From: a virus
IMG/VR virus record: IMGVR_UViG_3300032241_002207
Coordinates: 1-28,201 of that record
DNA: 28,201 nt
Direction: 5' to 3' (one strand)
The notes beneath the pieces were generated by a model. That model was not told the DNA's origin. It saw only the letters and a list, made by a program, of their open reading frames with translations, and did not search any database. The number at the start of each line of letters is the position of its first letter. Position 1 is the stretch's first letter. Below, in pieces: positions 1,328 through 26,094 of this stretch. The translations under genes were made by a program, and so were the position numbers.

Positions 1328-1699
1328 ATGCGTATACGTGAATTATTAGAAAGTTTTAATTTTAAAGAAGACGAATTTGTTAAAAAACACAACAATAAAG
1401 TTGAGTTGGACTATGATCTTGCCGAAGATTTAATACATTTTATGCACAACGATGACGATGTGTATCGTCGTCATACCTATCCAGCATTGATGAAATGCAT
1501 TGATAGTGTCAAAAATAAAAAGGCCACAAACGGTAAAATGTTTGCAGAAGCCATGAAAGAGTGCTACAAACTATACAAGAAAAAGTTTCCCATTCGTATT
1601 TTACCAAAAGAAATGGACGAAGATATTTGCGAAGAAGCATGTGAAAAAATGCATGAAGAAGTGTTAGAACACATTAGTTCTGGAAAGTACAAGGACTGA
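1328..1699 (+). CDS. Small charged protein with capsid-targeting-like N-terminus (123 aa)
   Basis: I chose the ATG at 1328 rather than the upstream TTG at 1304, because the resulting N-terminus MRIRELLE matches the leader pattern of the following genes (MLLRELF, MFLREFL, MRAKEFL). The start lacks a convincing Shine-Dalgarno sequence. The product is strongly charged and probably helical, with a Lys-rich middle and an acidic, Cys-containing end (EDICEEACEKMHEE). No known domain is recognised. It is first in the block and ends one base before the next ATG, so it is probably co-transcribed with it. By position and leader it may be an internal head protein; that is inference. ELLE or FNFKE would be possible processing sites if a gp21-like protease acts on it. 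Confidence 0.75.
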   Translation: MRIRELLESFNFKEDEFVKKHNNKVELDYDLAEDLIHFMHNDDDVYRRHTYPALMKCIDSVKNKKATNGKMFAEAMKECYKLYKKKFPIRILPKEMDEDICEEACEKMHEEVLEHISSGKYKD

Positions 1700-1700
1700 T

Positions 1701-3554
1701 ATGTTACTACGCGAACTGTTTAGAAATATTAAACAGCCTATATTCGAAGGCGGCAACATTTGGCCTGAATCTGAAGGGTTTGACCAAGCCATCGCCAATC
1801 ATCTTGTGCATGAAACCAATCGTTATCTAAGTGGTGTTGGCGCCCATGCTTATGTGATTGGTAGTGCTGCTACACCGACTCCAGGAAAGATTAGTGGTGA
1901 CTTAGATGTTATGGTGGATGCCACTCAGCTTGCACAAAAATTTGGTACTAAAGATGGAAAAACTACTCGTATTGAATTAGAAAAATATCTACAAAGCAAA
2001 GGTCTACAGACTAAAAAAACTGGTGTAACAGTACACATCTTATTACCATACAAAGAAAAATACTATCAAGTAGACATTAAAACTGTTGGCAATGCAGAAA
2101 AGGTTCATAAGTTTCATCATCATGCCATTCCTCAAGGTAGCCCTTATAAAGGTGTACATAAACAAATGATGATGAATGCATTGGCTAGTAGTCAAGGTAT
2201 GTTGTGGTCACCCGATGAAGGCCTATATGCTAGAGATGCTATGGGTAAAAAGTCAGATTTTGTCAGCGATGACTTAGATACCATTGCCAAACGTCTATTG
2301 GGCCCACATGCTAAAGCCGCAGATCTAGGCAGTGTTGAAAGTATAATGAATGCCATCCCTGACGAAGCACGTCGCAATGAAATATTCCAACAAGCATCAA
2401 GTGGTGCAAGTTGGCAAGCTGTTACACCGCAACCTGTAAACGAAGCGGCAACACCCGCTGTTGGTCGCAAATATCAACACATAGAAGATCTAGTGTTTAC
2501 TAACGGTAGCACAGGTGGCTTGCATGCTGTCGAACGACTACGCCATATGACCAGTAAGGGCGGAACTATAGAATTAAAATGGGACGGTAGTCCTGTAGTC
2601 TACTGGGGACGTGATGAAGAAGGCAAGTTTCATATGTTCCCTAAAAACGCTTGGGATTATATGAAGCGTGGTACTACTCATACTAAAAGTGGAGTTACTA
2701 CCATGATGAATGATCCAGATGATGTTGCTATGTTTATTCTAGGAACAGGAACAACACAACCTGGACAAGAAGATCAACGTCGTGCATTTGCTCAAGGGCT
2801 TGCGGATCTTTGGCCGTACTTTGAAAAAATCAGTCCAAAGAAAGGCTATATCGAAGGCGGTATATTATTCAGTCCATTACAACCGGCACAACTAAATCAG
2901 TCAACTAACGAATACGATTTCCAACCTAATATAACAGCTTTTCATATTCCAGCAGGAAGTGAATTAGGCAAACGTATTGCCAAGGCAAAAGTTATGGTTG
3001 CTGCAACTGGCTATTATACACACATTGGTGCAGATGAAACACGTTATCCCAATGCTGAAAAATTGTCTACTGCAGATGTCATTGTACAAGGTACAACATA
3101 TGTTGAAAATGCTCCGCAAGTAGATTCAACTGGATTGGATCACACTGAAGATTATATTAAGAGTAATAAAGCAGCAATTGACAGTTTTATTGCTGGACAA
3201 CCTGGTCTAAGTAAACCAGGAGATGTGCTTTATAGTTTCTTTAATCAAAACTTACGTGTGCAAGGTGTTAAACAAAAGTTTGCACAATGGGCACAATCTA
3301 AACTAAGCAACACTCAAGCACAGAAGATACTAAGTCATCCAGGGTTGGACGCTGTACTAACAGCCGTAGAATTACTAACACATGAAAAAATGAAAGTAAT
3401 TAATTCATTAAGTTCAGGCACACACGGCGGAATTCGTCAAACAAAGCCAGAAGGATATGTACAAGCGCATCCTGGTGGCAAATTTAAAAACGACTTGCCT
3501 GGACAGTTTGTCAAAACTATTGACCAGGCTAACTGGGCACCAAGGAAAGACTAA
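1701..3554 (+). CDS. Two-domain protein: Pol-beta-type nucleotidyltransferase plus ligase-like KWDG domain (617 aa)
   Basis: The N-terminal leader MLLRELFRNIKQPIFE resembles a capsid-targeting sequence with an I-F-E cleavage-type site. Residues about 25-230 carry the Pol-beta superfamily nucleotidyltransferase signature: G54-S55, then D67-L-D69, then D125 in a strand (YYQVDIKTV). Residues about 255-530 carry ELKWDGSP with K293-x-D-G, the motif I pattern of DNA/RNA ligases and capping enzymes (the Lys would be adenylylated), and E385 in YIEGGILF, which fits a motif III strand. I associate this half with the phage family DUF6267 from memory. V-N-E248|A249 lies in the linker between the halves, matching the L/I/V-x-E preference of T4-type prohead proteases. 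Substrates are unknown. The stop overlaps the next ATG (TAATG). Confidence 0.75.
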   Translation: MLLRELFRNIKQPIFEGGNIWPESEGFDQAIANHLVHETNRYLSGVGAHAYVIGSAATPTPGKISGDLDVMVDATQLAQKFGTKDGKTTRIELEKYLQSKGLQTKKTGVTVHILLPYKEKYYQVDIKTVGNAEKVHKFHHHAIPQGSPYKGVHKQMMMNALASSQGMLWSPDEGLYARDAMGKKSDFVSDDLDTIAKRLLGPHAKAADLGSVESIMNAIPDEARRNEIFQQASSGASWQAVTPQPVNEAATPAVGRKYQHIEDLVFTNGSTGGLHAVERLRHMTSKGGTIELKWDGSPVVYWGRDEEGKFHMFPKNAWDYMKRGTTHTKSGVTTMMNDPDDVAMFILGTGTTQPGQEDQRRAFAQGLADLWPYFEKISPKKGYIEGGILFSPLQPAQLNQSTNEYDFQPNITAFHIPAGSELGKRIAKAKVMVAATGYYTHIGADETRYPNAEKLSTADVIVQGTTYVENAPQVDSTGLDHTEDYIKSNKAAIDSFIAGQPGLSKPGDVLYSFFNQNLRVQGVKQKFAQWAQSKLSNTQAQKILSHPGLDAVLTAVELLTHEKMKVINSLSSGTHGGIRQTKPEGYVQAHPGGKFKNDLPGQFVKTIDQANWAPRKD

Positions 3555-4891
3555 TGTTTTTACGTGAATTTTTAAATCGTACTGGTGAAGGCAAAGCGGC
3601 TGTAGTTGGCTGGGGACGTGGCATGGGTCACAAAGGACACATGTATTTGGCTAGTAGTGTAATTACACAAGCCAAAGATCACGGAGCAGATCCGTATTTT
3701 GTGGTTAGTCGCACAGTCGGTAAAGATGATCCAATCACACCTGATGAAAAATTAGGAATCTACAAAAAAGTATTTCCTAAACATGGACATATTTTTCATA
3801 CAGCTACAGATGAAATGCCAGATTTAACTCGTGTATTAACTCAATTGAGCAAACATGGATATACCGATGTCACTGTTGTTGTAGGTGCTGACCAAGTCGG
3901 TGCATTAAGTTATGTTAAGAACTATAACGGCAAACCTGATAAATCTGGAAATATTCCATTTGATTTTAACACATTAAATGTTATTGCTCGTCAAGAAACA
4001 AATGATCCAAGTGCCGGTGAAGAAGGACCACGTGCTACGCCTATGCGAGCAATATTGCAAGATCCTAATGCAACTGAAGAAGAAAAATTTGCAGCATGGC
4101 GTGATGCAATGAGTCCCGAACTAAGCGATGACGAAGTTCGTGAGCTAATGAATAAAGCACAACAACGCATGGCAGATCCTGCATTTGGTAAAGCTCCTAA
4201 GAAACCTAAGAAAGAAAAAGTTGCAGATGAAAGTCTAATGGGATTTTTAGGTAAAGTTGAAAAACCTGTCAAGAAGAAACCTGTAGCCAGTGCAGAAGAG
4301 ATGCGTAAATGGTTTGAAAAAGAAAAAGCTAAAGATTCAGACAAAATTGAAAGAGGCACGGGAGATAAAAAAGCACAACAAGTATATACTAGATCAGATG
4401 AAAATTTGATTAAATATGCTAACAGGATGGTAAGAGAAATGAGAGCACAAGAATTCGTTCGTCGTCAATTAAATGAAAAAGCAACTATAACTTCCGCAAC
4501 ACCCGATGCACCTTATGCCGGCCAGGGAGACAGTGATGATTTGGCAGACGAGCATTTAGCAGGGTTAAATCATGCTGTAAGTTTTCCATCTATTAGCATG
4601 AACAAATCAAACGGTAGTAGTTATTTGCAATACCGTTTCGGTCTAGCTATGGCAGGTGCGCATCCTAACCCTAATGATCATATGCCTACTCCAATGAGCA
4701 CTGGCGGTGCATTTAGCGGTGATCCATTAATTGCTCCGTTCAGTGATCAAGATTTAGAAATAGTTAAAGCAGCTGGTAAACATATCGGTGCTGGTAAAAT
4801 GACCAGGTTAGCAGACAAGAGTAATGAAATGTCAGATACTAATAAACTTAGTCCAGTTGCTAAACAAAAGAAAAATAGATACGGTGTATAA
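3554..4891 (+). CDS. HxGH-family nucleotidyltransferase with fused C-terminal phage module (445 aa)
   Basis: Leader MFLREFLNRTGE, then a cytidylyltransferase-like (HIGH superfamily) domain: GWGRGMGHKGH with H26-x-G-H29, the strand and turn VVVGADQV near residue 110, and GPRATPMR, a variant of the SxTxxR motif. Enzymes of this fold transfer NMP to small phosphorylated substrates such as NMN or phosphopantetheine; the substrate here cannot be read. Residues about 200-290 are a Lys-rich linker. From M296 the protein restarts with MRAQEFVRRQLNE and ends LSPVAKQKKNRYGV, matching the start and end of the next gene product (MRAKEFLSE and SPVAARKKNKYGI). The C-terminal 150 residues therefore look like a fused paralogue of that gene. 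TAATG junctions on both sides imply coupled translation. Confidence 0.8.
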   Translation: MFLREFLNRTGEGKAAVVGWGRGMGHKGHMYLASSVITQAKDHGADPYFVVSRTVGKDDPITPDEKLGIYKKVFPKHGHIFHTATDEMPDLTRVLTQLSKHGYTDVTVVVGADQVGALSYVKNYNGKPDKSGNIPFDFNTLNVIARQETNDPSAGEEGPRATPMRAILQDPNATEEEKFAAWRDAMSPELSDDEVRELMNKAQQRMADPAFGKAPKKPKKEKVADESLMGFLGKVEKPVKKKPVASAEEMRKWFEKEKAKDSDKIERGTGDKKAQQVYTRSDENLIKYANRMVREMRAQEFVRRQLNEKATITSATPDAPYAGQGDSDDLADEHLAGLNHAVSFPSISMNKSNGSSYLQYRFGLAMAGAHPNPNDHMPTPMSTGGAFSGDPLIAPFSDQDLEIVKAAGKHIGAGKMTRLADKSNEMSDTNKLSPVAKQKKNRYGV

Positions 4892-5265
4892 TGCGAGCTA
4901 AAGAATTTTTATCTGAAAGAACAGGAAAACACCATCCAGATCACGAATCTGTGCATAAAGGTATTAGTGCAGATAGAGATCCGGGTGGATATTATCCTAA
5001 TTATCATCAGTTAAGAACAGGTATGGCATTAGCAATGGCTGATGGTGGAAAAGATAAATTAGATGTAGACCACGAAAGCTGGATGGGGCCTTTCTGGACT
5101 CAACATCCTTATACCGAAGTTGAACACAATATGTTTAAACAAGTACGTAAAGCTATACCCACCGAACATCATCAGAGAACTCCATGGGCAGATAGTAAAG
5201 AACCAGATGATACGCATAAAACTAGCCCTGTAGCCGCTCGCAAGAAAAACAAATACGGAATTTAA
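4891..5265 (+). CDS. Conserved phage protein, paralogue of the preceding gene's C-terminal module (124 aa)
   Basis: Starts MRAKEFLSE, a capsid-targeting-like leader with an L-S-E site at residues 7-9, and ends TSPVAARKKNKYGI. Both ends are shared with the last 150 residues of the preceding protein, so the two probably arose by duplication. The middle is rich in His, Asp and aromatic residues (HHPDHESVHKG, YYPNYHQL, MGPFWTQHPYTEVEHNMF). I recall this layout from other marine phage genomes but no function is known to me. The ATG shares a base with the previous stop and the next gene begins one base after its stop, so it sits inside one operon. It is possibly a packaged head protein (inference). 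Confidence 0.8.
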   Translation: MRAKEFLSERTGKHHPDHESVHKGISADRDPGGYYPNYHQLRTGMALAMADGGKDKLDVDHESWMGPFWTQHPYTEVEHNMFKQVRKAIPTEHHQRTPWADSKEPDDTHKTSPVAARKKNKYGI

Positions 5266-5266
5266 A

Positions 5267-5704
5267 ATGGACGAGAAATATCATCTAGCACTTAAAACAG
5301 CATTTGCCAGTGAATTTAGTTTTTATCTAAAATCACATAATTTCCATTGGAATGTGGAGGGCCCATTATTTGGTCAATTACACGAATTGTTTGAAAGAAT
5401 CTATACAGAAGTTTATGGTAGTATTGATACATTTGCAGAACATCTACGTGCACTACAAGTTTATACACCAGCCAGCTTGCAAAAATTCAGTATGTTAACT
5501 ACAGTACAAGATGAAAATCGTGTACCAGAGTGGAAAGAAATGTTAGAAGAATTACTAGCAGATAGTGACCGTATGGCAGATATATTCCGTATTACATTTG
5601 ATATGGCTGAAGCGAATGGCGATCACGGACTAAGTAATTTCTTAGCCGATCGTCAAGATGCACATAAAAAGCATAGCTGGATGCTTAGATCGAGTTTGAA
5701 GTAA
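5267..5704 (+). CDS. dps: Dps-like ferritin, DNA-binding/iron-oxidising miniferritin (145 aa)
   Basis: A single ferritin-like four-helix domain of near-normal length for Dps. The ferroxidase ligands are present with canonical spacing: H27 in NFHWNVEG, H39 twelve residues later, D54 fifteen after that, and E58 in the D-x3-E pair. The ending FLADRQDAHKKHSWMLRSSL matches the Dps C-terminal helix. Dps dodecamers oxidise Fe(II) with peroxide inside a shell and can coat DNA. There is no long Lys-rich N-terminal tail of the E. coli type, so DNA binding is uncertain. Unlike its neighbours it has no M-x-x-R-E-F leader (it begins MDEKYH). It lies in the middle of the proposed packaged-protein block, with TAATG coupling to the next gene, so it is expressed with those genes. 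Confidence 0.9.
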   Translation: MDEKYHLALKTAFASEFSFYLKSHNFHWNVEGPLFGQLHELFERIYTEVYGSIDTFAEHLRALQVYTPASLQKFSMLTTVQDENRVPEWKEMLEELLADSDRMADIFRITFDMAEANGDHGLSNFLADRQDAHKKHSWMLRSSLK

Positions 5705-8071: not shown

Positions 8072-9670
8072 ATGGACATGAAGCGTATACTACAGGCATT
8101 AGATGGCGTTTCTACAAAGCCTGTAGCAGGCGCCAATGATATGAAAAAATTCCTTCAGGTTGTTACTGAAGGAACTAATCCTCATAAAGTTTCATTGCCA
8201 GTGCAAATGGCTATGCAACATTATCAGCAAAAAGAAGAAAAACCCCGAGCCCGTGTTGGACGAGATAGTGTTGTTGCCAAATACTTTTACGAAGTTGAGC
8301 AGGAGTTTCAAGAGCAAGCAGATCGTAAGCGTCAATTAATTAATCAATATGCCGGCACTATTGCCGAGCGTGTTATGATGCGTGAAGGCACGGATCCTAA
8401 ATTAGAAAAAATTGCCAAGCGCAAAGCATTACAAGCAATTGATTCATCATTATACAAAAACTACGCAGAAGAAGTAGTGAATGAAAAAAGCACTACTGAA
8501 AAACAAGCTCGCACCATGGCAGCAGCTGCACACAATCCAGAGTTTGCCAAGAAAGTTGGTATTAAACAGAGTGTAGCTAAAGAATTCAATCAAAAAGACA
8601 AAGGCACTGCGCTACTTAGCAATGCTATGAAAGGCAAGCGAAAAGTAAAAGAAAATGAAATTCCAGGCCATAGCATGGGATTTAAACCAGGTCCTGGCGG
8701 TCCAGGTATTATGCCCAACGAAGCACATGATCCTAATTTTACAGGATTCATGAATAAAGCATTAGGCACACGCCAAGATAAAAAACCACTTAAAGTTGAC
8801 CCAAAAACTGTTATGAGTATGAATAACATGCCAGGCTACAAACATGCGTTTAAGTTTGGTATGGATATTATTAAAAAGATGGATCCAGATACTAAACAAC
8901 ATTTTGCTAATGAAGATGACGATGCTTTAGAATCTTACATGATAGATATAGCTGAGAAAAAAGGTTTGATTCCAAAATATTTTGTTGAAGAAGATCTAAG
9001 TGAAGTGGTAGGTGAGTTTGAAGAAATATTTCACGATCCCGAAATGGAAGGTTGGAGCTGGGCAGATCTACTAAGAGATATGATCGGCCAAGAACCTATG
9101 GCACATGAAAAAGCCAATGTTCAGGCACACAAACAAATGATGGCTAAATCACAAGCTGAGAAAGATAATCCTCCACCGATAGACCCAAATAAATTAAAAG
9201 TTGTAAATCGTACAGATACTGGAAAATCAGAAATATGGTATCCACATGGCGACTTTTTTGGAACACCTTCCTGGGCAGTAGTTCAAGGTGGATTTAAAGA
9301 TAAGGCGCATGCAGAACATACACTAGATCAATTACGTTTAAATCCCAATGTTGTTAACATAATTAAGAAAGCTATTGCAGACGATTTAGATGAAGGTCAG
9401 TCAGCACAGGTAAAATTAAGTCGTGCATGGGATAGAGAAAAAGCTAAATCAACTGCTAGTATAGAACGTGCAAAACAGGCCAAAGCAGAATTTGAAAAAG
9501 AATGGAAGGCCAAACAAGAAAAAAAATCTCAAGAACCTAATCCAATCAAAGAAGCCAACGCAAAAAAACGCACACTAAAAAATTCAAACCCGTGCTGGAA
9601 AGGGTATCATCCAGTAGGCACTAAGAAAAAAGGAGGCCGCACAGTACCTAACTGTGTTCCAAAGGAATAA
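8072..9670 (+). CDS. Putative internal virion protein with repeated leader and C-terminal CWKGY motif (532 aa)
   Basis: The N-terminus holds two copies of a similar amphipathic helix: DMKRILQALDGVS and, about 22 residues on, DMKKFLQVVTEGT, the second ending in V-T-E. Further L/I/V-x-E sites occur at VVNEKS, KVKENE and PIKEAN. A central alpha-helical region (about 240-340) is acidic. A segment with WYPHGDFFGTPSWAVVQGGF may be a small beta domain. The C-terminus is basic, with a long charged helix (KAEFEKEWKAKQEKK) and then NPCWKGYHPVGTKKKGG and VPNC, a motif I recall at the ends of many phage structural proteins. No catalytic signature is seen. It begins four bases after the previous stop and ends three bases before the next ATG. 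Confidence 0.75.
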   Translation: MDMKRILQALDGVSTKPVAGANDMKKFLQVVTEGTNPHKVSLPVQMAMQHYQQKEEKPRARVGRDSVVAKYFYEVEQEFQEQADRKRQLINQYAGTIAERVMMREGTDPKLEKIAKRKALQAIDSSLYKNYAEEVVNEKSTTEKQARTMAAAAHNPEFAKKVGIKQSVAKEFNQKDKGTALLSNAMKGKRKVKENEIPGHSMGFKPGPGGPGIMPNEAHDPNFTGFMNKALGTRQDKKPLKVDPKTVMSMNNMPGYKHAFKFGMDIIKKMDPDTKQHFANEDDDALESYMIDIAEKKGLIPKYFVEEDLSEVVGEFEEIFHDPEMEGWSWADLLRDMIGQEPMAHEKANVQAHKQMMAKSQAEKDNPPPIDPNKLKVVNRTDTGKSEIWYPHGDFFGTPSWAVVQGGFKDKAHAEHTLDQLRLNPNVVNIIKKAIADDLDEGQSAQVKLSRAWDREKAKSTASIERAKQAKAEFEKEWKAKQEKKSQEPNPIKEANAKKRTLKNSNPCWKGYHPVGTKKKGGRTVPNCVPKE

Positions 9671-9673
9671 ACT

Positions 9674-11287
9674 ATGAACATGCGTGATTTACTTAATAAA
9701 CTAGATACAGTATCTGAAAACAATATATCTGAATTTAGAGTCGATGCTGGAAGACCACACGATTTTTATCGTCACGATAATTACTACGGTAATCCTCGTA
9801 TGTGGGGTATGAATCCTTTAACAGGTATGTTATTTACAGCTGCTGAAATTGCTGCATTAAGCAATCGAGGAGTGACTCCCCAGATGGTGCAACAAATGCC
9901 GCCACAACAAATGGCGCAAGTAGTACAAGCTGCTCCAACAACAAATACTCCGATTATGCCAAGTAGTACAACAACTACAACTGGGCCAGCTGTACCAGTA
10001 GGTCAACCTATTGCAGGTGCAACTAAGTACTATAATCCAAACGGTGACGGTACATTCCAAGATCATCCTTATACACAAAGCGGAGACACTGCCGGATCGC
10101 CTGTAGACACTACTAAAGCTGACACAGACAACGCTGCTAAAATTGCACGTTTTAAAGAGTTGTTAGTAAAAGCAGGCGTAGGCGATTCGTCAGCAGAAAA
10201 GACTGACTATAGCCTAGCCGGAGATAAAGCAAACAACGGCCTTGGCATGAAAATTAAAGAAGGATTTGCAAGAGATCCATTATTAGAAAAATTAAGATTA
10301 ATCGATTCTGGACATAAATTCAACGAAGGTTTGACTCCAGAAGAAAGTAAAGAGTTAGATAAACTCTACGGTGATCTAAGTGTTACAGGAAAAAATGATC
10401 CTAAATTAGCACCATTGTTTGCACAGTACAATAAAGTACCAAGTGTATCTGCTGCAGATCCTGCAACACCAAACACAGCTGCAGATCCTGTAGATACTAC
10501 CAAACCCCAACAATGGGCACCAGGTGTACTACATGTAGGTATGGGAATGCCGCCTGCGTCTCCAGATCCTAAAGTTATGGAGTTACAGAAAAAACTAGGT
10601 ATCACTCCTGCAGATGGAAGATTTGGTCCTGGCACTGAAAAAGCTGTCAAGGCAAAACAAACAGAAATTGGCGCCAAACCCGATGGAGCATGGGGTCCAG
10701 AATCTCAAGCCAAATTTGCGGCCAAAGGCGGAACAGCTCCATCACCATCAGCTACTCCAGGTGCCGCAGGAGGTGCTTCAGCTATTCCAGCTGATGCTAG
10801 TAAAAAAGAACCTTATTGGGTAAATGGAACACGATATGAATGGAATATGTCCGGCGGCGGGCGTGGACAGGCAGCTACTGGAAAATGGAAAGTAACTGCT
10901 ACCCCTCAAGATGCATTACAGTGGAATAGCACACGATATCGTTCTATGAACAAATTTACTGGTCCAGATTCTGCGTATGGCAAGACAGCTACACCGGATG
11001 CAACTGGTACTACTGCAACTAAACCATCAGCTACGCCGGGCGATGATTCTTGGGACGATAAAAATGCTACCAAAGTTCCTCCTATGAATTTGGACAAGAA
11101 ACCTATGTCAGCACAGCAACGACTAGCTCAACAAAATGTTGAAAGGGCAAAGGCAAAGGCAGCCCAATTGGCAGCTGCCGGTCAAGATTCAGGAACATTT
11201 AAACAAGGCCAATTACAACCAAATGAAAGTGTTGAATTTAGCTTTGCTGATCAGTTGATTGAAAGTTTTGGTTATCAACCCAAGTAA
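9674..11287 (+). CDS. Putative internal virion protein with peptidoglycan-binding-type domain (537 aa)
   Basis: AAGGA precedes the ATG at a good distance. The leader MNMRDLLNKLDTVSE matches the block's pattern. Residues about 60-150 are Pro/Thr/Gln-rich low complexity. Residues about 300-352 form a PG_binding_1-type repeat: MELQKKLGITPADGRFGPGT followed by KPDGAWGPESQAKF, with the duplicated D-G-x-x-G-P-x-T/S pattern of that fold. Then come a Ser/Ala/Gly linker and a module with repeated WN(S/G)TRY-type strings (NGTRYEWNM, WNSTRYRSM). The C-terminus ESVEFSFADQLIESFGYQPK is an amphipathic tail. Peptidoglycan binding would suit a protein that contacts the cell wall at DNA entry, but no lytic catalytic domain is visible. 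A hairpin terminator follows directly. Confidence 0.75.
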   Translation: MNMRDLLNKLDTVSENNISEFRVDAGRPHDFYRHDNYYGNPRMWGMNPLTGMLFTAAEIAALSNRGVTPQMVQQMPPQQMAQVVQAAPTTNTPIMPSSTTTTTGPAVPVGQPIAGATKYYNPNGDGTFQDHPYTQSGDTAGSPVDTTKADTDNAAKIARFKELLVKAGVGDSSAEKTDYSLAGDKANNGLGMKIKEGFARDPLLEKLRLIDSGHKFNEGLTPEESKELDKLYGDLSVTGKNDPKLAPLFAQYNKVPSVSAADPATPNTAADPVDTTKPQQWAPGVLHVGMGMPPASPDPKVMELQKKLGITPADGRFGPGTEKAVKAKQTEIGAKPDGAWGPESQAKFAAKGGTAPSPSATPGAAGGASAIPADASKKEPYWVNGTRYEWNMSGGGRGQAATGKWKVTATPQDALQWNSTRYRSMNKFTGPDSAYGKTATPDATGTTATKPSATPGDDSWDDKNATKVPPMNLDKKPMSAQQRLAQQNVERAKAKAAQLAAAGQDSGTFKQGQLQPNESVEFSFADQLIESFGYQPK

Positions 11288-15216: not shown

Positions 15217-15948
15217 ATGAAAGACTTTTTACAAGACCTCGTAGCACATACACACAGTTTGGGATTTTTGCCTCTGGTAAAAGTTTCAGCAACTAACAAA
15301 GAAGTTGCAATTGAATCTTTAGCTGAGGATCGTTCAGTTATCCTTAATGCTAAGTCTAAAGAAACAGTAGACGGTTTCGAAGGCGTATTTGGTATGCCTA
15401 ATCTTAACAAGTTGGATATTATTTTGAAGTGTCCAGAATACAAGGAAAACTTTACTATCAATGTTGTTCGTCAAGAACGTAATGGAGAAGAAGTTCCAAC
15501 AGGCTTGCACTTCCAGAACGGAGCAGGCGACTTTGAAAATGATTATCGCTTTATGAATCAAGATATCATCAATGAAAAGATGAAATCGGTCAAGTTTAAA
15601 GGTGCTAACTGGGATATCGAGTTCGAGCCAACTATGGCTAGTATCCAGCGCTTTAAATTCCAAAGTGCTGTACACAGTGAAGAACAAACATTTCAAGTGA
15701 CTACTAAAGATGGTAATTTGATCTTCAGCTTTGGCGATGCAAGCACACACGCTGGCAACTTTGTTTTCCAATCAGGTGTTAATGGAAAACTGAAACAGTC
15801 ATGGTCATGGCCTGTCACACAAGTTCAAAGCATCCTGAATCTAACTGGCGACAAGACTATGCGTATTGCAGATGCAGGCGCATTGCAAATTACTGTAGAC
15901 AGCGGTATTACAGAATACGAATACATCCTACCAGCACAATCTAAATAA
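15217..15948 (+). CDS. 45: Sliding clamp, T4 gp45 type (243 aa)
   Basis: DNA polymerase processivity factor; in T4 it is a trimeric ring that also activates late transcription. The length fits (T4 gp45 is 228 aa). The segment FEGVFGMPNLNKLDIILKCP matches a conserved part I recall from T4-like clamp proteins of aquatic phages (F-x-GVFG-x-x-N-L-x-K-L). The two-domain beta-rich layout and acidic character fit a clamp. AAGGA lies about ten bases before the ATG, and a consensus promoter precedes it. Clamp and polymerase are separated only by the dehydrogenase gene. The dpdA-like gene starts at its stop codon (TAATG), so both are co-expressed. Confidence 0.85.
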   Translation: MKDFLQDLVAHTHSLGFLPLVKVSATNKEVAIESLAEDRSVILNAKSKETVDGFEGVFGMPNLNKLDIILKCPEYKENFTINVVRQERNGEEVPTGLHFQNGAGDFENDYRFMNQDIINEKMKSVKFKGANWDIEFEPTMASIQRFKFQSAVHSEEQTFQVTTKDGNLIFSFGDASTHAGNFVFQSGVNGKLKQSWSWPVTQVQSILNLTGDKTMRIADAGALQITVDSGITEYEYILPAQSK

Positions 15949-17654
15949 TGAACAAGAATCTGACAGCCACACAGAACGATTATGCGTACTTCCTGCCGGC
16001 AACGTCAGGTTTTTATAGTACATATATAGGTAAACAGCGTCACAGCAACTATGTAGACCCTGCACGTATTCCTGCTAGCTTTGGTCCTCTAGGTATTGAA
16101 GCAATGAATTACTTGAACCCTAATGCGGCATTTTATTTCGATCATTGTTTGTATTCAGCAGGACATGCTAATTTAGATCTATCAAAACCAGATCCTAGTG
16201 AGGATATGTTTCGTAATCGTGATAGATCTACCAGCTGGGTGTTAGGTGACTCGGGCGGATTCCAAATTGGTAAAGGTGTATGGGCCGGAGAATGGAGAGA
16301 TCCTAATGGTCCTGAAGTTGCAGCCAAGTGGGCAGAAGTTCGTGCTAAAGGTGTTGAACTAGTTCCGCAACTACATCCAACAGGCGATCCTAAAACAGAT
16401 AAGAATGGCAATCCTAAGTATACTAAGATTGATCATGTAAAGAACTATCAAGCACTATTAGATGCTGCACAAAAGAAACGTGAACAAGTACTGGCATGGA
16501 TGGATGCTTTAATGGATTACGGAATGGTGCTTGATATTCCTGCATGGGTAGAACGTAGTCCTGTAGGAAAGGCTGCTACAGGTATTGCTTCGTATGATCA
16601 AGCTGTTGATGCTACCAAGTACAATAATGAATATTTCATTAAACATCGTACAGGTGCATGCAAGTTCTTAAATGTGTTGCAAGGTGAAAATCATGCACAA
16701 GCAGAAGATTGGTATCAAAAGATGAAAGACTTTTGTGATCCAAATATCTATGGCGACAAAGCATTTAACGGTTGGGCCATGGGTGGACAAAATATGTGTG
16801 ATGTTGAACTAACATTACGCAGACTAGTGGCATTGAAGTTTGATGGACTTCTTGAAAAAGGTCATCAAGACTGGATGCACTTCTTGGGCACCTCTAAACT
16901 AGAATGGGCATTATTATTAACCGATATTCAACGTGCTATTAGGAAGTATCATAATGAAAACTTTACCATATCTTTTGACTGCGCCTCACCGTTTTTGGCA
17001 ACTGCAAACGGACAAATCTATGTCCAAACAGAAATCAAAGATAGAGAAAAATGGCTCTACCGCATGTTGCCCAGCCTTGACAACAAGAAATATGCCAAAG
17101 ATACTAGACTATTCCAAGATGCGGTAGTACAAGACAGACACTTTGAGTCATTTACTACAAGCCCTATTATGGATGGTGTAGAAGTTAACAAGATTTGTAT
17201 CTACGGCCCCGGCGATCTAAACAAGATTGGCAAGGAAGGCAAGACATCGTGGGACAGTTTCACCTATGCTATTATGATGGGCCATAATGTTTGGTTACAT
17301 TTGAATAGTGTTCAAGAAGCTAATCGTCAATATGATGCTGGCCTGTGTCCTGCTATGTTAGTAGATGAAAAATTTGAAAGAATCTACTTCCGTGATGTAG
17401 TTGATGCTATCTTTAGTGCTCCAGATCGAGAAACTGCTATTGCTATTATTGATAGTTTTGATAAGTTCTGGCAGGCTATTCCTGGAACACGTGGCTATAC
17501 TGGCAAACGTACAGTTAATGCTAGTACCAAATTCTTCGAATTGTTTGAAGAGGTAGATGAATCTAGTGTACAATCTGAAGATGAAGTTGATTTTGACAAA
17601 TCAGCAATTGATAAACTGGACGCATTAGAGGCAAGCGTACATGACATTACCTGA
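15948..17654 (+). CDS. dpdA: DpdA-like TGT-fold DNA guanine transglycosylase (568 aa)
   Basis: Member of the tRNA-guanine transglycosylase superfamily. VLGDSGGFQIG contains D101-SGGFQ, the general acid/base motif of TGT. FLNVLQGE matches the VQG strand, GWAMGGQN the substrate-binding glycine loop, and ISFDCASPF holds D344, aligned with the TGT nucleophile in FDC-x-x-P. The CxCxxC zinc site of tRNA enzymes is not seen after D344, and the protein is longer than bacterial TGT (about 375 aa). Phage DpdA proteins swap guanine in DNA for a 7-deazaguanine such as preQ0, which blocks restriction enzymes. folE, queE and a QueD-like gene downstream supply the pathway context. The end is acidic and may be disordered. 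The next gene overlaps by 14 bases. Confidence 0.85.
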   Translation: MNKNLTATQNDYAYFLPATSGFYSTYIGKQRHSNYVDPARIPASFGPLGIEAMNYLNPNAAFYFDHCLYSAGHANLDLSKPDPSEDMFRNRDRSTSWVLGDSGGFQIGKGVWAGEWRDPNGPEVAAKWAEVRAKGVELVPQLHPTGDPKTDKNGNPKYTKIDHVKNYQALLDAAQKKREQVLAWMDALMDYGMVLDIPAWVERSPVGKAATGIASYDQAVDATKYNNEYFIKHRTGACKFLNVLQGENHAQAEDWYQKMKDFCDPNIYGDKAFNGWAMGGQNMCDVELTLRRLVALKFDGLLEKGHQDWMHFLGTSKLEWALLLTDIQRAIRKYHNENFTISFDCASPFLATANGQIYVQTEIKDREKWLYRMLPSLDNKKYAKDTRLFQDAVVQDRHFESFTTSPIMDGVEVNKICIYGPGDLNKIGKEGKTSWDSFTYAIMMGHNVWLHLNSVQEANRQYDAGLCPAMLVDEKFERIYFRDVVDAIFSAPDRETAIAIIDSFDKFWQAIPGTRGYTGKRTVNASTKFFELFEEVDESSVQSEDEVDFDKSAIDKLDALEASVHDIT

Positions 17655-24089: not shown

Positions 24090-24854
24090 ATGACTGAATC
24101 CAGAACATACGAAAATATTAAAATAGGCGTAGACATACAAGACGATGATAACAAAGATTATCAAGAAGCATATCTTGGAGATCATCTTCGCTTTAAAATG
24201 AAACGTGAAGGCAAACGTTTTTGGGCTGGCGATAATATCAGCGACTATGTTAGCGAAGAAGACAAAGCAAAACTAATTGACGAAGCAACAGAAGCATTTG
24301 AAACTGTATTAGATCGGTTGCTTATTGATCGCGAAAACGATCCTAATAGCAAAGGTACAGCCAAACGATTGGCTAAAATGTATTTTAATGAGGTGATGAG
24401 TGGAAGATATGAACCAGCCCCAGACGCAACAGCGTTCCCAAATGATTCGGCAGACCGTTACGAAGGTATGCTTGTTGTACGCAGTGAATTGCGTAGTATG
24501 TGCAGTCATCATCACCAACCTGTGGTTGGTGTGGCTTATATTGGTATTATTGCTGCCAGTAAACTTATCGGTTTATCTAAGTATACCCGAATCGCACAGT
24601 GGTGTGCAAGGCGAGGTACTCTCCAGGAGGAACTTTGCAATGATATTGCTAGGGAAATCCAAAAAGCCACAGGAGCCGCAGACTTAGGCGTGTACATTCA
24701 AGCAGTACACGGTTGTTGTGAGAATCGTGGTATTATGGCACACTCTAGTCTTACACAGACTACAGTACTAAAAGGTGCATTTAAAGATGACCACGGTACT
24801 AAGAAAGAGTTTTTTGATAACATTAAAATGCAACAGGAGTTTGCGCCAAGATGA
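24090..24854 (+). CDS. folE: GTP cyclohydrolase I, FolE (254 aa)
   Basis: Converts GTP to dihydroneopterin triphosphate, first step of folate and of queuosine/7-deazaguanine synthesis. Zinc ligands C138 and H141 lie in RSMCSHHHQPV and C209 in VHGCCENRG. The motif KLIGLSKYTRIAQWCARR and LQEELCNDIAREI follow the family pattern, as does the upstream KGTAKRLAKMYFNEV. Length is slightly above the E. coli enzyme (222 aa) because of an acidic N-terminal extension of about 60 residues. It has its own promoter and an ATGA junction to the next gene. With queE and dpdA in the window, use for DNA base modification is more likely than for folate (inference). Confidence 0.97.
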   Translation: MTESRTYENIKIGVDIQDDDNKDYQEAYLGDHLRFKMKREGKRFWAGDNISDYVSEEDKAKLIDEATEAFETVLDRLLIDRENDPNSKGTAKRLAKMYFNEVMSGRYEPAPDATAFPNDSADRYEGMLVVRSELRSMCSHHHQPVVGVAYIGIIAASKLIGLSKYTRIAQWCARRGTLQEELCNDIAREIQKATGAADLGVYIQAVHGCCENRGIMAHSSLTQTTVLKGAFKDDHGTKKEFFDNIKMQQEFAPR

Positions 24855-25072: not shown

Positions 25073-25259
25073 AAAACTATTTGCAAGAATAGTAAGTGAA
25101 GTGTTATACTACTTAGGGCATTGGATTAGTTTTCCAATGCATTGGTTCGATTGGGCATGGCTATATCCTACATATAGCCGTCTAATGTGCTGGAGTAGTG
25201 AAATACAAGAATGGGCAGGCAATACTAAACCGTGGGAAACAATAAATGAGCAAGATTAA
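25062..25259 (+). CDS. Small Trp-rich phage protein, possibly membrane-associated (65 aa)
   Basis: ATG at 25062 (a second ATG follows at once); GAAGA precedes it. Composition is unusual: eight Trp in 65 residues, with a hydrophobic amphipathic N-terminal half (KLFARIVSEVLYYLGHWISF) and YSRLMCWSSEIQEWAG. It may attach to the membrane as an amphipathic helix. No family function is recognised. It overlaps queE by 14 bases. Confidence 0.7.
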   Translation: MMIKKLFARIVSEVLYYLGHWISFPMHWFDWAWLYPTYSRLMCWSSEIQEWAGNTKPWETINEQD

Positions 25260-26094
25260 AATAGCAGAACTGTTTTATAGTATTCAAGGTGAAGGTCGAT
25301 ATATGGGGGTGCCCAGTGTGTTCCTCCGTACTTTTGGATGTAATTTTAAATGTCAAGGATTTGGTATGCCGCGTGGCAAATTAAGTACCGAAGCAGAAGA
25401 TCTTGCTCAAATAGTACACTTATATAATACATATGAAGAACTTCCTCTTGTCACTACCGGTTGTGATAGCTATGCCAGTTGGCATCCTGATTTTAAGCAT
25501 CTATCTCCCCTACTTGATACTAACGCAATTGCCGATCGTATTATGGATATTATTCCGCATGGTACGTGGCAAGATGAACATTTGGTGATCACTGGCGGAG
25601 AGCCCTTGTTGGGTTGGCAACGTGCTTATCCTGACCTGTTGGATCATACTAAGATGCAGGGCCTGAAAGAGATTACTTTTGAAACAAACGGCACTCAACC
25701 TTTAACTGAAGAATTTAGATCATACTTACATAGTTGGAAGAAACAAAATTCTAATCGTGAAATTACATTTAGTGTAAGCGCCAAACTTCCTGGTAGTGGT
25801 GAAGTATGGAGTGAAGCAATTAAGCCACAAATAGTTTGTGAATACGAATGGTTTGGGACTGCTTATCTTAAATTTGTTGTAGCAACTGAACAAGACCTGC
25901 ATGATGCCGAACAAGCAGTAGAAGAATATCAAAGGGCCGGGTTCACTGGTAACATCTATTTGATGCCGGTCGGCGGTGTCGAAAGTGTATATGCCTTAAA
26001 CAATAAAACTGTAGCATTGATGGCAATGACTCGCGGGTGGCGCTACAGTGATCGATTACAAGTGCCATTGTTCAAGAACGAGTGGGGTACTTGA
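25246..26094 (+). CDS. queE: QueE-like radical SAM 7-carboxy-7-deazaguanine synthase (282 aa)
   Basis: Converts 6-carboxytetrahydropterin to 7-carboxy-7-deazaguanine with SAM and a 4Fe-4S cluster. The N-terminus LFYSIQGEG and VFLRTFGCNFKC follow QueE, and ITGGEPLL and FETNGTQPL are the GGEP and ETNG motifs. The cluster Cys pattern is unusual: C32-x3-C36 is followed by Phe where the third Cys is expected, and C73-D-S appears 36 residues later, matching the C-D-T that follows the third Cys in bacterial enzymes. So a loop of about 35 residues seems to separate the second and third ligands. The length is slightly above bacterial QueE (about 220). It ends in an ATGA overlap with a tiny membrane protein gene. 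Confidence 0.92.
   Translation: MSKIKIAELFYSIQGEGRYMGVPSVFLRTFGCNFKCQGFGMPRGKLSTEAEDLAQIVHLYNTYEELPLVTTGCDSYASWHPDFKHLSPLLDTNAIADRIMDIIPHGTWQDEHLVITGGEPLLGWQRAYPDLLDHTKMQGLKEITFETNGTQPLTEEFRSYLHSWKKQNSNREITFSVSAKLPGSGEVWSEAIKPQIVCEYEWFGTAYLKFVVATEQDLHDAEQAVEEYQRAGFTGNIYLMPVGGVESVYALNNKTVALMAMTRGWRYSDRLQVPLFKNEWGT

Follow-up and report, generated by a model that had tools for sequence, protein, structure and literature searches.

The window analysed here is a 28-kb virus record (28,201 nt; IMG/VR record IMGVR_UViG_3300032241_002207), a fragment without a head module that comes from a T4-like freshwater phage. Its positions 1701 to 3554 hold a gene for a protein of 617 amino acids (aa), in which a short leader precedes a domain resembling DNA polymerase beta (Pol beta) and its family X (Pol X), joined by a linker to a ligase-like DUF6267 domain. 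A preliminary description, made from the letters alone, had read this protein as a prohead-processed pair of nucleotidyltransferases delivered with the DNA, and the residues on which it relied (G54-S55, D67-L-D69, D125, K293-W-D-G, E385 and V-N-E248|A249, the bar marking the putative cut) are all found in the translation. The features of the gene are as follows.

1701..3554, + strand: gene of the 617-aa polyprotein (leader, Pol-beta/family-X-like domain, linker, DUF6267 ligase-like domain), from open reading frame translation, homologs and codon comparison
1701..1748, + strand: leader MLLRELFRNIKQPIFE, residues 1-16, capsid-targeting-like, ending I-F-E16|G17; conserved in 42/42 distinct homologs
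1749..2402, + strand: Pol-beta-type nucleotidyltransferase domain, family X palm+thumb-like, residues 17-234 (AlphaFold, Foldseek, NTP_transf_2)
1860..1865, + strand: G54-S55 active-site motif; G54 in 45/45 and S55 in 39/45 diverse N-domains
1899..1907, + strand: D67-L-D69 catalytic carboxylates, each in 45/45 diverse N-domains
2073..2075, + strand: D125, third carboxylate, in 44/45 diverse N-domains (G in the L039 clade)
2403..2468, + strand: linker, residues 235-256, predicted disordered (AlphaFold pLDDT <50 over 235-259)
2436..2447, + strand: putative prohead-protease site V246-N247-E248|A249, in 42/42 fused homologs and aligned with the leader end of stand-alone DUF6267 genes
2469..3551, + strand: DUF6267 domain, ligase-like covalent nucleotidyltransferase by prediction, residues 257-617 (PF19782, AlphaFold, Foldseek)
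2577..2588, + strand: motif I K293-W-D-G with the predicted nucleotidyl-lysine; K293, D295 and G296 each 80/80
3450..3461, + strand: motif IV E584-G-Y-V; E584 and G585 each 80/80
3513..3515, + strand: motif V lysine K605, 80/80

The gene is a genuine one, because 62 viral-contig loci hold homologs of its product (59-97% identity, mostly full length) and its codon differences from a 91% homolog are mainly synonymous (81 synonymous against 9 nonsynonymous in the N-domain, 121 against 35 in the C-domain). Motif conservation exceeds chance in the N-domain, the C-domain and the linker of diverse homolog alignments. Searches of Pfam, PHROGs and PDB sequences assigned the protein no function except DUF6267, and relatives of it were neither confirmed in bacterial genome contigs nor found in plasmids. 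Its two halves differ in distribution: the N-domain has 0 homologs among 50,697 cultured phage records, whereas relatives of the DUF6267 protein of P-TIM40 occur in at least 467 such records, chiefly from cyanomyoviruses; no mention of DUF6267 was found in the literature searched. Kinship between the two halves was considered and rejected (hhalign prob 1.4%).

The fold of the first half comes from a full-length AlphaFold model built on a 30-sequence alignment, where pLDDT is mostly 80-94 per block in the N-domain and confidence is lower in the C-half. All 50 matches listed by Foldseek against the PDB for the N-domain are polymerases lambda or beta (E 1.4e-5 to 9e-5, prob 1.00), and their TM-scores, 0.20-0.24 over the full query length, are low because that query includes the second domain. 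With hG[GS]...DxD and the third D present on a Pol-beta fold in residues 17-234 (alignment, AlphaFold and Foldseek), the Pol-beta nucleotidyltransferase that the preliminary description had placed in the first half is borne out, fold and G54, D67, D69 and D125 alike. At the level of sequence, NTP_transf_2 is weakly matched by 10 of 42 diverse members (best E 0.0014), the family X thumb PF14791 has no match in the genomes of three relatives, the N-domain profile met chance matches only among PDB sequences, and hhalign of its profile against Pol beta (with an approximate query sequence) covered the SGD-D-V active-site motif alone (prob 2.7%). We call the domain Pol-X-like because the Pol X sequence profiles go unmatched. 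In our reading, by eye, a conserved GSPYKG-helix that follows D67/D69/D125 occupies the place of the TGSxxFN of Pol X. One clade (L039, L040, L041 and L056) has lost the third carboxylate, with D125 replaced by G (YQGGIK in L039); to judge from these residues, its polymerase may be inactive; its ligase-like half is intact.

The second half is a clear DUF6267 domain (PF19782, residues 260-617, E 2.7e-17, 63.6 bits against a curated cut-off of 27), and the same profile is matched by all 76 members of the C-domain alignment. Modelled alone by AlphaFold with 75 diverse relatives, it reaches a pLDDT of 93.1 and a pTM of 0.87, and ligases make up nearly all of the 25 top matches listed by Foldseek against the PDB (best E 0.02, prob 0.66), among them a fungal tRNA ligase, the ligase of African swine fever virus (ASFV), an archaeal RNA ligase, a trypanosome editing ligase and human ligase I. 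As these E-values are weak, the motif evidence, counted over 80 diverse sequences, weighs more: besides the invariant residues of motifs I, IV and V listed above, K315 is kept in 79/80 and F407, P409 and K563 each in 80/80. On the AlphaFold model and these motifs DUF6267 is marked here as a putative covalent, ligase-like nucleotidyltransferase. The ligase-like half of the preliminary description stands in its invariant K293-x-D-G and predicted ligase-like fold, but E385, which it named beside this motif, is clade-specific, most relatives having Q or K there and a D two residues on (QGD/KGD, not EGG), while the universal E584 and K605 had been overlooked. A family-wide role for E385 as the catalytic motif-III acid is rejected on the same 80-sequence alignment.

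The identity of these matches bears on what the enzymes would act upon. In the PDB the C-domain finds its best fold matches in tRNA/RNA ligases (6n0t, 8rbj, 8uch), with DNA ligases behind them or interspersed, and at least one relative has a classical DNA ligase (PF01068), so that replication does not depend on a second one. It could then be that a protein packaged and cut as proposed repairs RNA: the N-domain would rebuild 3′ ends by adding terminal nucleotides, and at entry its ligase-like partner would seal tRNA, or other RNA, cleaved by anticodon-nuclease defences of the host. With tRNA ligases as the nearest folds of the C-domain, this rival is a serious one; even so, the 50 listed fold matches of the N-domain are the gap polymerases lambda and beta rather than CCA or poly(A) enzymes, and no kinase/phosphatase partner for end healing is recognised among the neighbour genes by domain or PHROG matches. 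We hold RNA repair possible, if on the unlikely side.

Whichever the substrate, the leader and the linker share one mark. The leader pattern M-L/F-LREL/M/I-F/Y with [ILV]-x-E|G is kept in all 42 distinct homologs, its MLLRELF being near-invariant and its hydrophobic/basic core of a type common to several neighbour genes, and it ends [ILVMF]-x-E| in each of the 42 fused ones, mostly as |GGNIWP. In T4, the protease gp21 cuts after L/I-x-E, and the capsid-targeting sequences (CTSs) are leaders of 10-19 residues (PMC9026906). An [ILVMF]-x-E triad recurs in the linker of 42/42 distinct close fused homologs, 3-7 residues before GRKYQH, against a background of 6% of other 22-residue stretches, and is constant whereas the flanking linker differs in length and sequence. 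Every further fused relative whose junction is intact has it too, the sole miss (L050) being a truncated frame in which the motif script matched a different HxED. The preliminary description had staked its reading on active sites kept in both folds and on a break at residue 248; the active sites are intact, and the surroundings of that residue are predicted disordered, with no continuous domain across them.

What this triad may have been is suggested by relatives in which the halves are separate genes. The 197 loci analysed divide into 111 with the fused gene, 33 in which two neighbouring genes encode the halves in the order of the fused gene, and 53 with the C-gene only in the stretch examined. 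In split loci the stand-alone DUF6267 gene has a leader of its own that likewise ends in x-E|AA at the equivalent position (MRFREFVLKE|SAAPTVGRKYQH in L123, VRLRELFE|AAAPKVGRKYQH in L140, MRAREFLFE|AAAPSIGRKYQH in L165 and MKPSDFLTE|AAAPKVGRKYQH in L168), and the C-gene leader of marine relatives, MYSFKQYLNE|AKNTHLEHLED (L208), is near the T4 leader. Since these leaders end at the position homologous to the fused linker, PQPVNE|AATPAVGRKYQH, the latter appears as a leader end minus its targeting part: the fused proteins have lost the targeting half of the C-gene leader and retained the cleavage triad. The N-genes of split loci begin MILTE|GGNIWPE or are preceded by an additional region that bears a leader and ends ESIITE|GGN (L177). 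A tree of the loci has at least five changes between the fused and split states, with the site kept in every fused lineage examined that has an intact junction; on this comparison, fusion or fission occurred several times and the putative cleavage site was always retained. In L177, L181 and L175, a region of about 140 residues with its own leader (MKINDLLNE|, MKINELLTE|) precedes the Pol-X-like domain, and the junction between them is a second site of I-x-E|GGN type; by its sequence this N-gene possibly encodes a three-part precursor.

The alignment of the linker with the leader end of a stand-alone gene means that common descent alone could supply the motif, in which case the protein would be packaged uncut at 248, as one bifunctional enzyme with the relic of a former leader inside it. 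A mere relic, however, would hardly be kept in 42/42 sequences with variable flanks and with the targeting part of the old leader lost, nor through several events of fusion and fission, and we give this possibility little credence.

The protease that such cleavage would call for was found in the long relatives. Three of these (345, 161 and 98 kb) have an S77 prohead protease (E about 1e-26) together with a T4-like major capsid protein, whose N-terminus is TRKYLME|SPTAGATSAG or near-identical in all three; in the 345-kb relative the genes follow the T4-like order portal, core, protease, scaffold, major capsid protein. With this protease, the conservation of the triad in 42/42 and its equivalence to leader ends in split-gene relatives, V-N-E248|A249 holds as the candidate processing site it had been taken for. 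Within the head module, a gene of about 79 aa directly after the portal gene (L074:16877-17182, with relatives in L090 and L102) starts MILRELFYIDP, with the leader core of the 617-aa protein and without a nearby I/L-x-E site, and its product is perhaps a core protein.

Leaders of like kind stand on six genes of the window (starting at 1328, 1701, 3554, 4891, 8072 and 9674), those other than the 617-aa gene being:

1328..1699, + strand: leader-bearing gene (MRIRELLESFNFKE), upstream of the 617-aa gene
3554..4891, + strand: leader-bearing cytidylyltransferase/NMNAT-like partner gene (MFLREFLN...; phrog_3041, E 1.7e-21)
4891..5265, + strand: leader-bearing small protein (MRAKEFLSE|R)
8072..9670, + strand: leader-bearing protein of phrog 'virion structural protein' families (phrog_22033/25121, E about 1e-9)
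9674..11287, + strand: leader-bearing protein (MNMRDLLNKLDTVSE|N) with a peptidoglycan-binding domain, by domain match

Inside this cluster lies a Dps/ferritin-like gene without a leader (window 5267-5704; PF00210, E 1.2e-22). Elsewhere in the window, proteins resembling, by eye, tRNA-guanine transglycosylase (15948-17654), GTP cyclohydrolase I (24090-24854) and the radical-SAM enzyme QueE (25246-26094) are encoded by possible 7-deazaguanine DNA modification genes.

The cytidylyltransferase is a constant neighbour of the protein, lying directly downstream in 95 of the 111 fused loci and joined to it in frame in a further 7; it is in frame with DUF6267 in 9 loci. Proteins joining DUF6267 to a cytidylyltransferase are known in S-PM2 and other phages, and in S-SM1 and S-PM2 the DUF6267 gene (T4-GC 71) adjoins the cytidyltransferase T4-GC190. 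In S-PM2, DUF6267 (L235:4992-6771, S-PM2p141/p142) is divided between two reading frames, of which the second also encodes the cytidylyltransferase; candidate causes are a frameshift, a sequencing error and a programmed event. Such constancy, with occasional fusion, would also suit a packaged pair aimed at host proteins or metabolites, by nucleotidylation or by NAD-related chemistry with the NMNAT-like neighbour, and T4 Alt, which acts on RNA polymerase, is a precedent of an injected modifying enzyme. A palm+thumb-like N-domain and a full set of ligase motifs indicate polynucleotide substrates instead, and we consider a host target unlikely.

The published detections in virions concern the family of this partner. 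T4-GC190 cytidyltransferase was detected in purified S-SM1 virions by mass spectrometry (PMC3037559), and a homolog was found in virions of S-CREM2, whose authors caution that abundant expression may put contaminant proteins there (PMC10665884). The cyanophage cytidylyltransferase has a T4-type capsid-targeting leader (MKNFSSFLTE|A in S-CREM2). Outside the tail and head modules of S-CREM2, the leader pattern [FL]xxF[LIM]xE occurs in 5/13 virion-detected against 1/103 undetected genes (p 4.5e-5, a somewhat optimistic value, as this looser pattern was picked after the first output); the first, stricter pattern, which required a small residue set after E, gave 2/13 against 0/103 (p 0.012). T4-type capsid-targeting-like motifs stand as well at the N-terminus of S-CREM2 gp12 (L245:7704-10313; LRFASFMAE|AA), a Cas9-like nuclease reported in virions, and in the virion-detected S-adenosylmethionine (SAM) hydrolase (MKDFDSFLEE) and kinase (MKRFDAFLTE) of that phage.

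These data bear on whether the 617-aa protein is a head protein at all. Its gene lies near replication and modification genes, and many cyanophage DUF6267 proteins are without a leader, as one would expect if the protein were a bifunctional enzyme of the cytoplasm, expressed early, with its N-terminal helix serving as a docking peptide. The resemblance of the leader to a T4-type CTS, its sharing across a gene cluster, the detection of the partner family in virions and the association of leaders with virions in S-CREM2 make such an enzyme improbable.

The computation shows the gene, its domain boundaries and conserved active sites, the conserved cleavage-type sites, the protease of the relatives and the partner gene; packaging, cleavage, ejection and catalysis are what we infer, in the following order. 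The MLLRELF leader would draw the precursor into the prohead core, as a CTS does for T4 internal proteins. The S77 prohead protease would then cut after I-F-E16, taking the leader off, and after V-N-E248 in the linker, cuts that are proposed because the sites are conserved and equivalent to leader ends of stand-alone genes. In the head, residues 17-248 would then be free as a Pol-X-like nucleotidyltransferase and residues 249-617 as a ligase-like covalent nucleotidyltransferase, as the predicted folds and motifs suggest; the NMNAT-like adenylyl/cytidylyltransferase of the adjacent gene, with its similar leader, may join them. Ejected with the DNA, the pair would act immediately, most likely in gap filling and in nick or end sealing of the incoming genome, which a Pol-X-like enzyme and a ligase would suit by analogy with what has been proposed for ASFV. 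That one relative has a classical DNA ligase gene of its own favours a special task for the pair.

Several points weigh against this interpretation. The N-domain is without a sequence match to Pol X profiles, the ligase fold match of the C-domain has a weak E-value (0.02; prob 0.66), and profile and database searches gave the C-domain no sequence matches outside DUF6267. Packaging and cleavage, of this protein as of any DUF6267 protein, are drawn from comparison; and as several cyanophage members are without a leader, packaging is not universal in the family. DNA and RNA both stand as candidate substrates. On balance, comparison of the sequences lends good support to a pair of enzymes that is targeted to the capsid and split by the protease, and the reading as a whole, in which a head-targeted Pol-X-like and ligase-like pair is split by the protease and ejected with the DNA, likeliest for gap or nick repair, seems to us probable. 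The stronger version, in which a gap-filling polymerase of Pol X type and a ligase, both from one protease-split precursor, are carried in the phage head and injected as a packaged kit for DNA repair or end joining, DUF6267 being a new branch of the ligase superfamily, is offered tentatively, at somewhat less than even chances.

A close precedent for the loading is that of the T4 internal head proteins (IPI-III and Alt, processed by gp21), which share the short N-terminal leader ending I/L-x-E|, an S77 protease (here in the long relatives) and, in Alt, enzyme cargo. They differ in that the present precursor would join two separable enzymes around a cleavage site in a single chain, its catalytic domains are other ones, its leader core MxLRELF is not of T4 type, and its packaging is deduced. 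In the giant phages phiKZ and SPN3US the prohead protease likewise cleaves after E in a short motif and the cargo includes RNA polymerase, but the mapped cuts of SPN3US remove propeptides and none divides one chain into two retained enzymes (PMC10052503), which is why splitting a chain into two kept enzymes would be a new use of the protease. The DUF6267 family of cyanomyoviruses (PHROG 455, T4-GC 71), of which the C-domain is a clear member, differs in standing alone or fused to the cytidylyltransferase, often without a leader. As to function, ASFV packages the repair enzymes Pol X pO174L and ligase pNP419L, for which gap filling and sealing are proposed (PMC12172490), and a 2022 review of phage polymerases takes its viral example of family X from ASFV (PMC8775771). 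Both viruses would pair a family X-type polymerase with a ligase, and the ASFV ligase is itself among the Foldseek matches of the C-domain; the ASFV enzymes, however, come from separate genes without leader or prohead protease, and the phage C-domain, as DUF6267, is far from known ligases; we draw a likeness and claim no common descent.

In conclusion, DUF6267, whose relatives are known from at least 467 sequenced phages, for the most part cyanomyoviruses, gains a testable enzymatic assignment as a covalent nucleotidyltransferase, and none of 50,697 cultured phage records matches the Pol-X-like phage enzyme described here. Should the cleavage prove real, the prohead protease would go beyond the trimming of leaders and release two enzymes from one capsid-targeted precursor, an economical way of loading stoichiometric cargo and a phage counterpart to the packed repair enzymes of ASFV.
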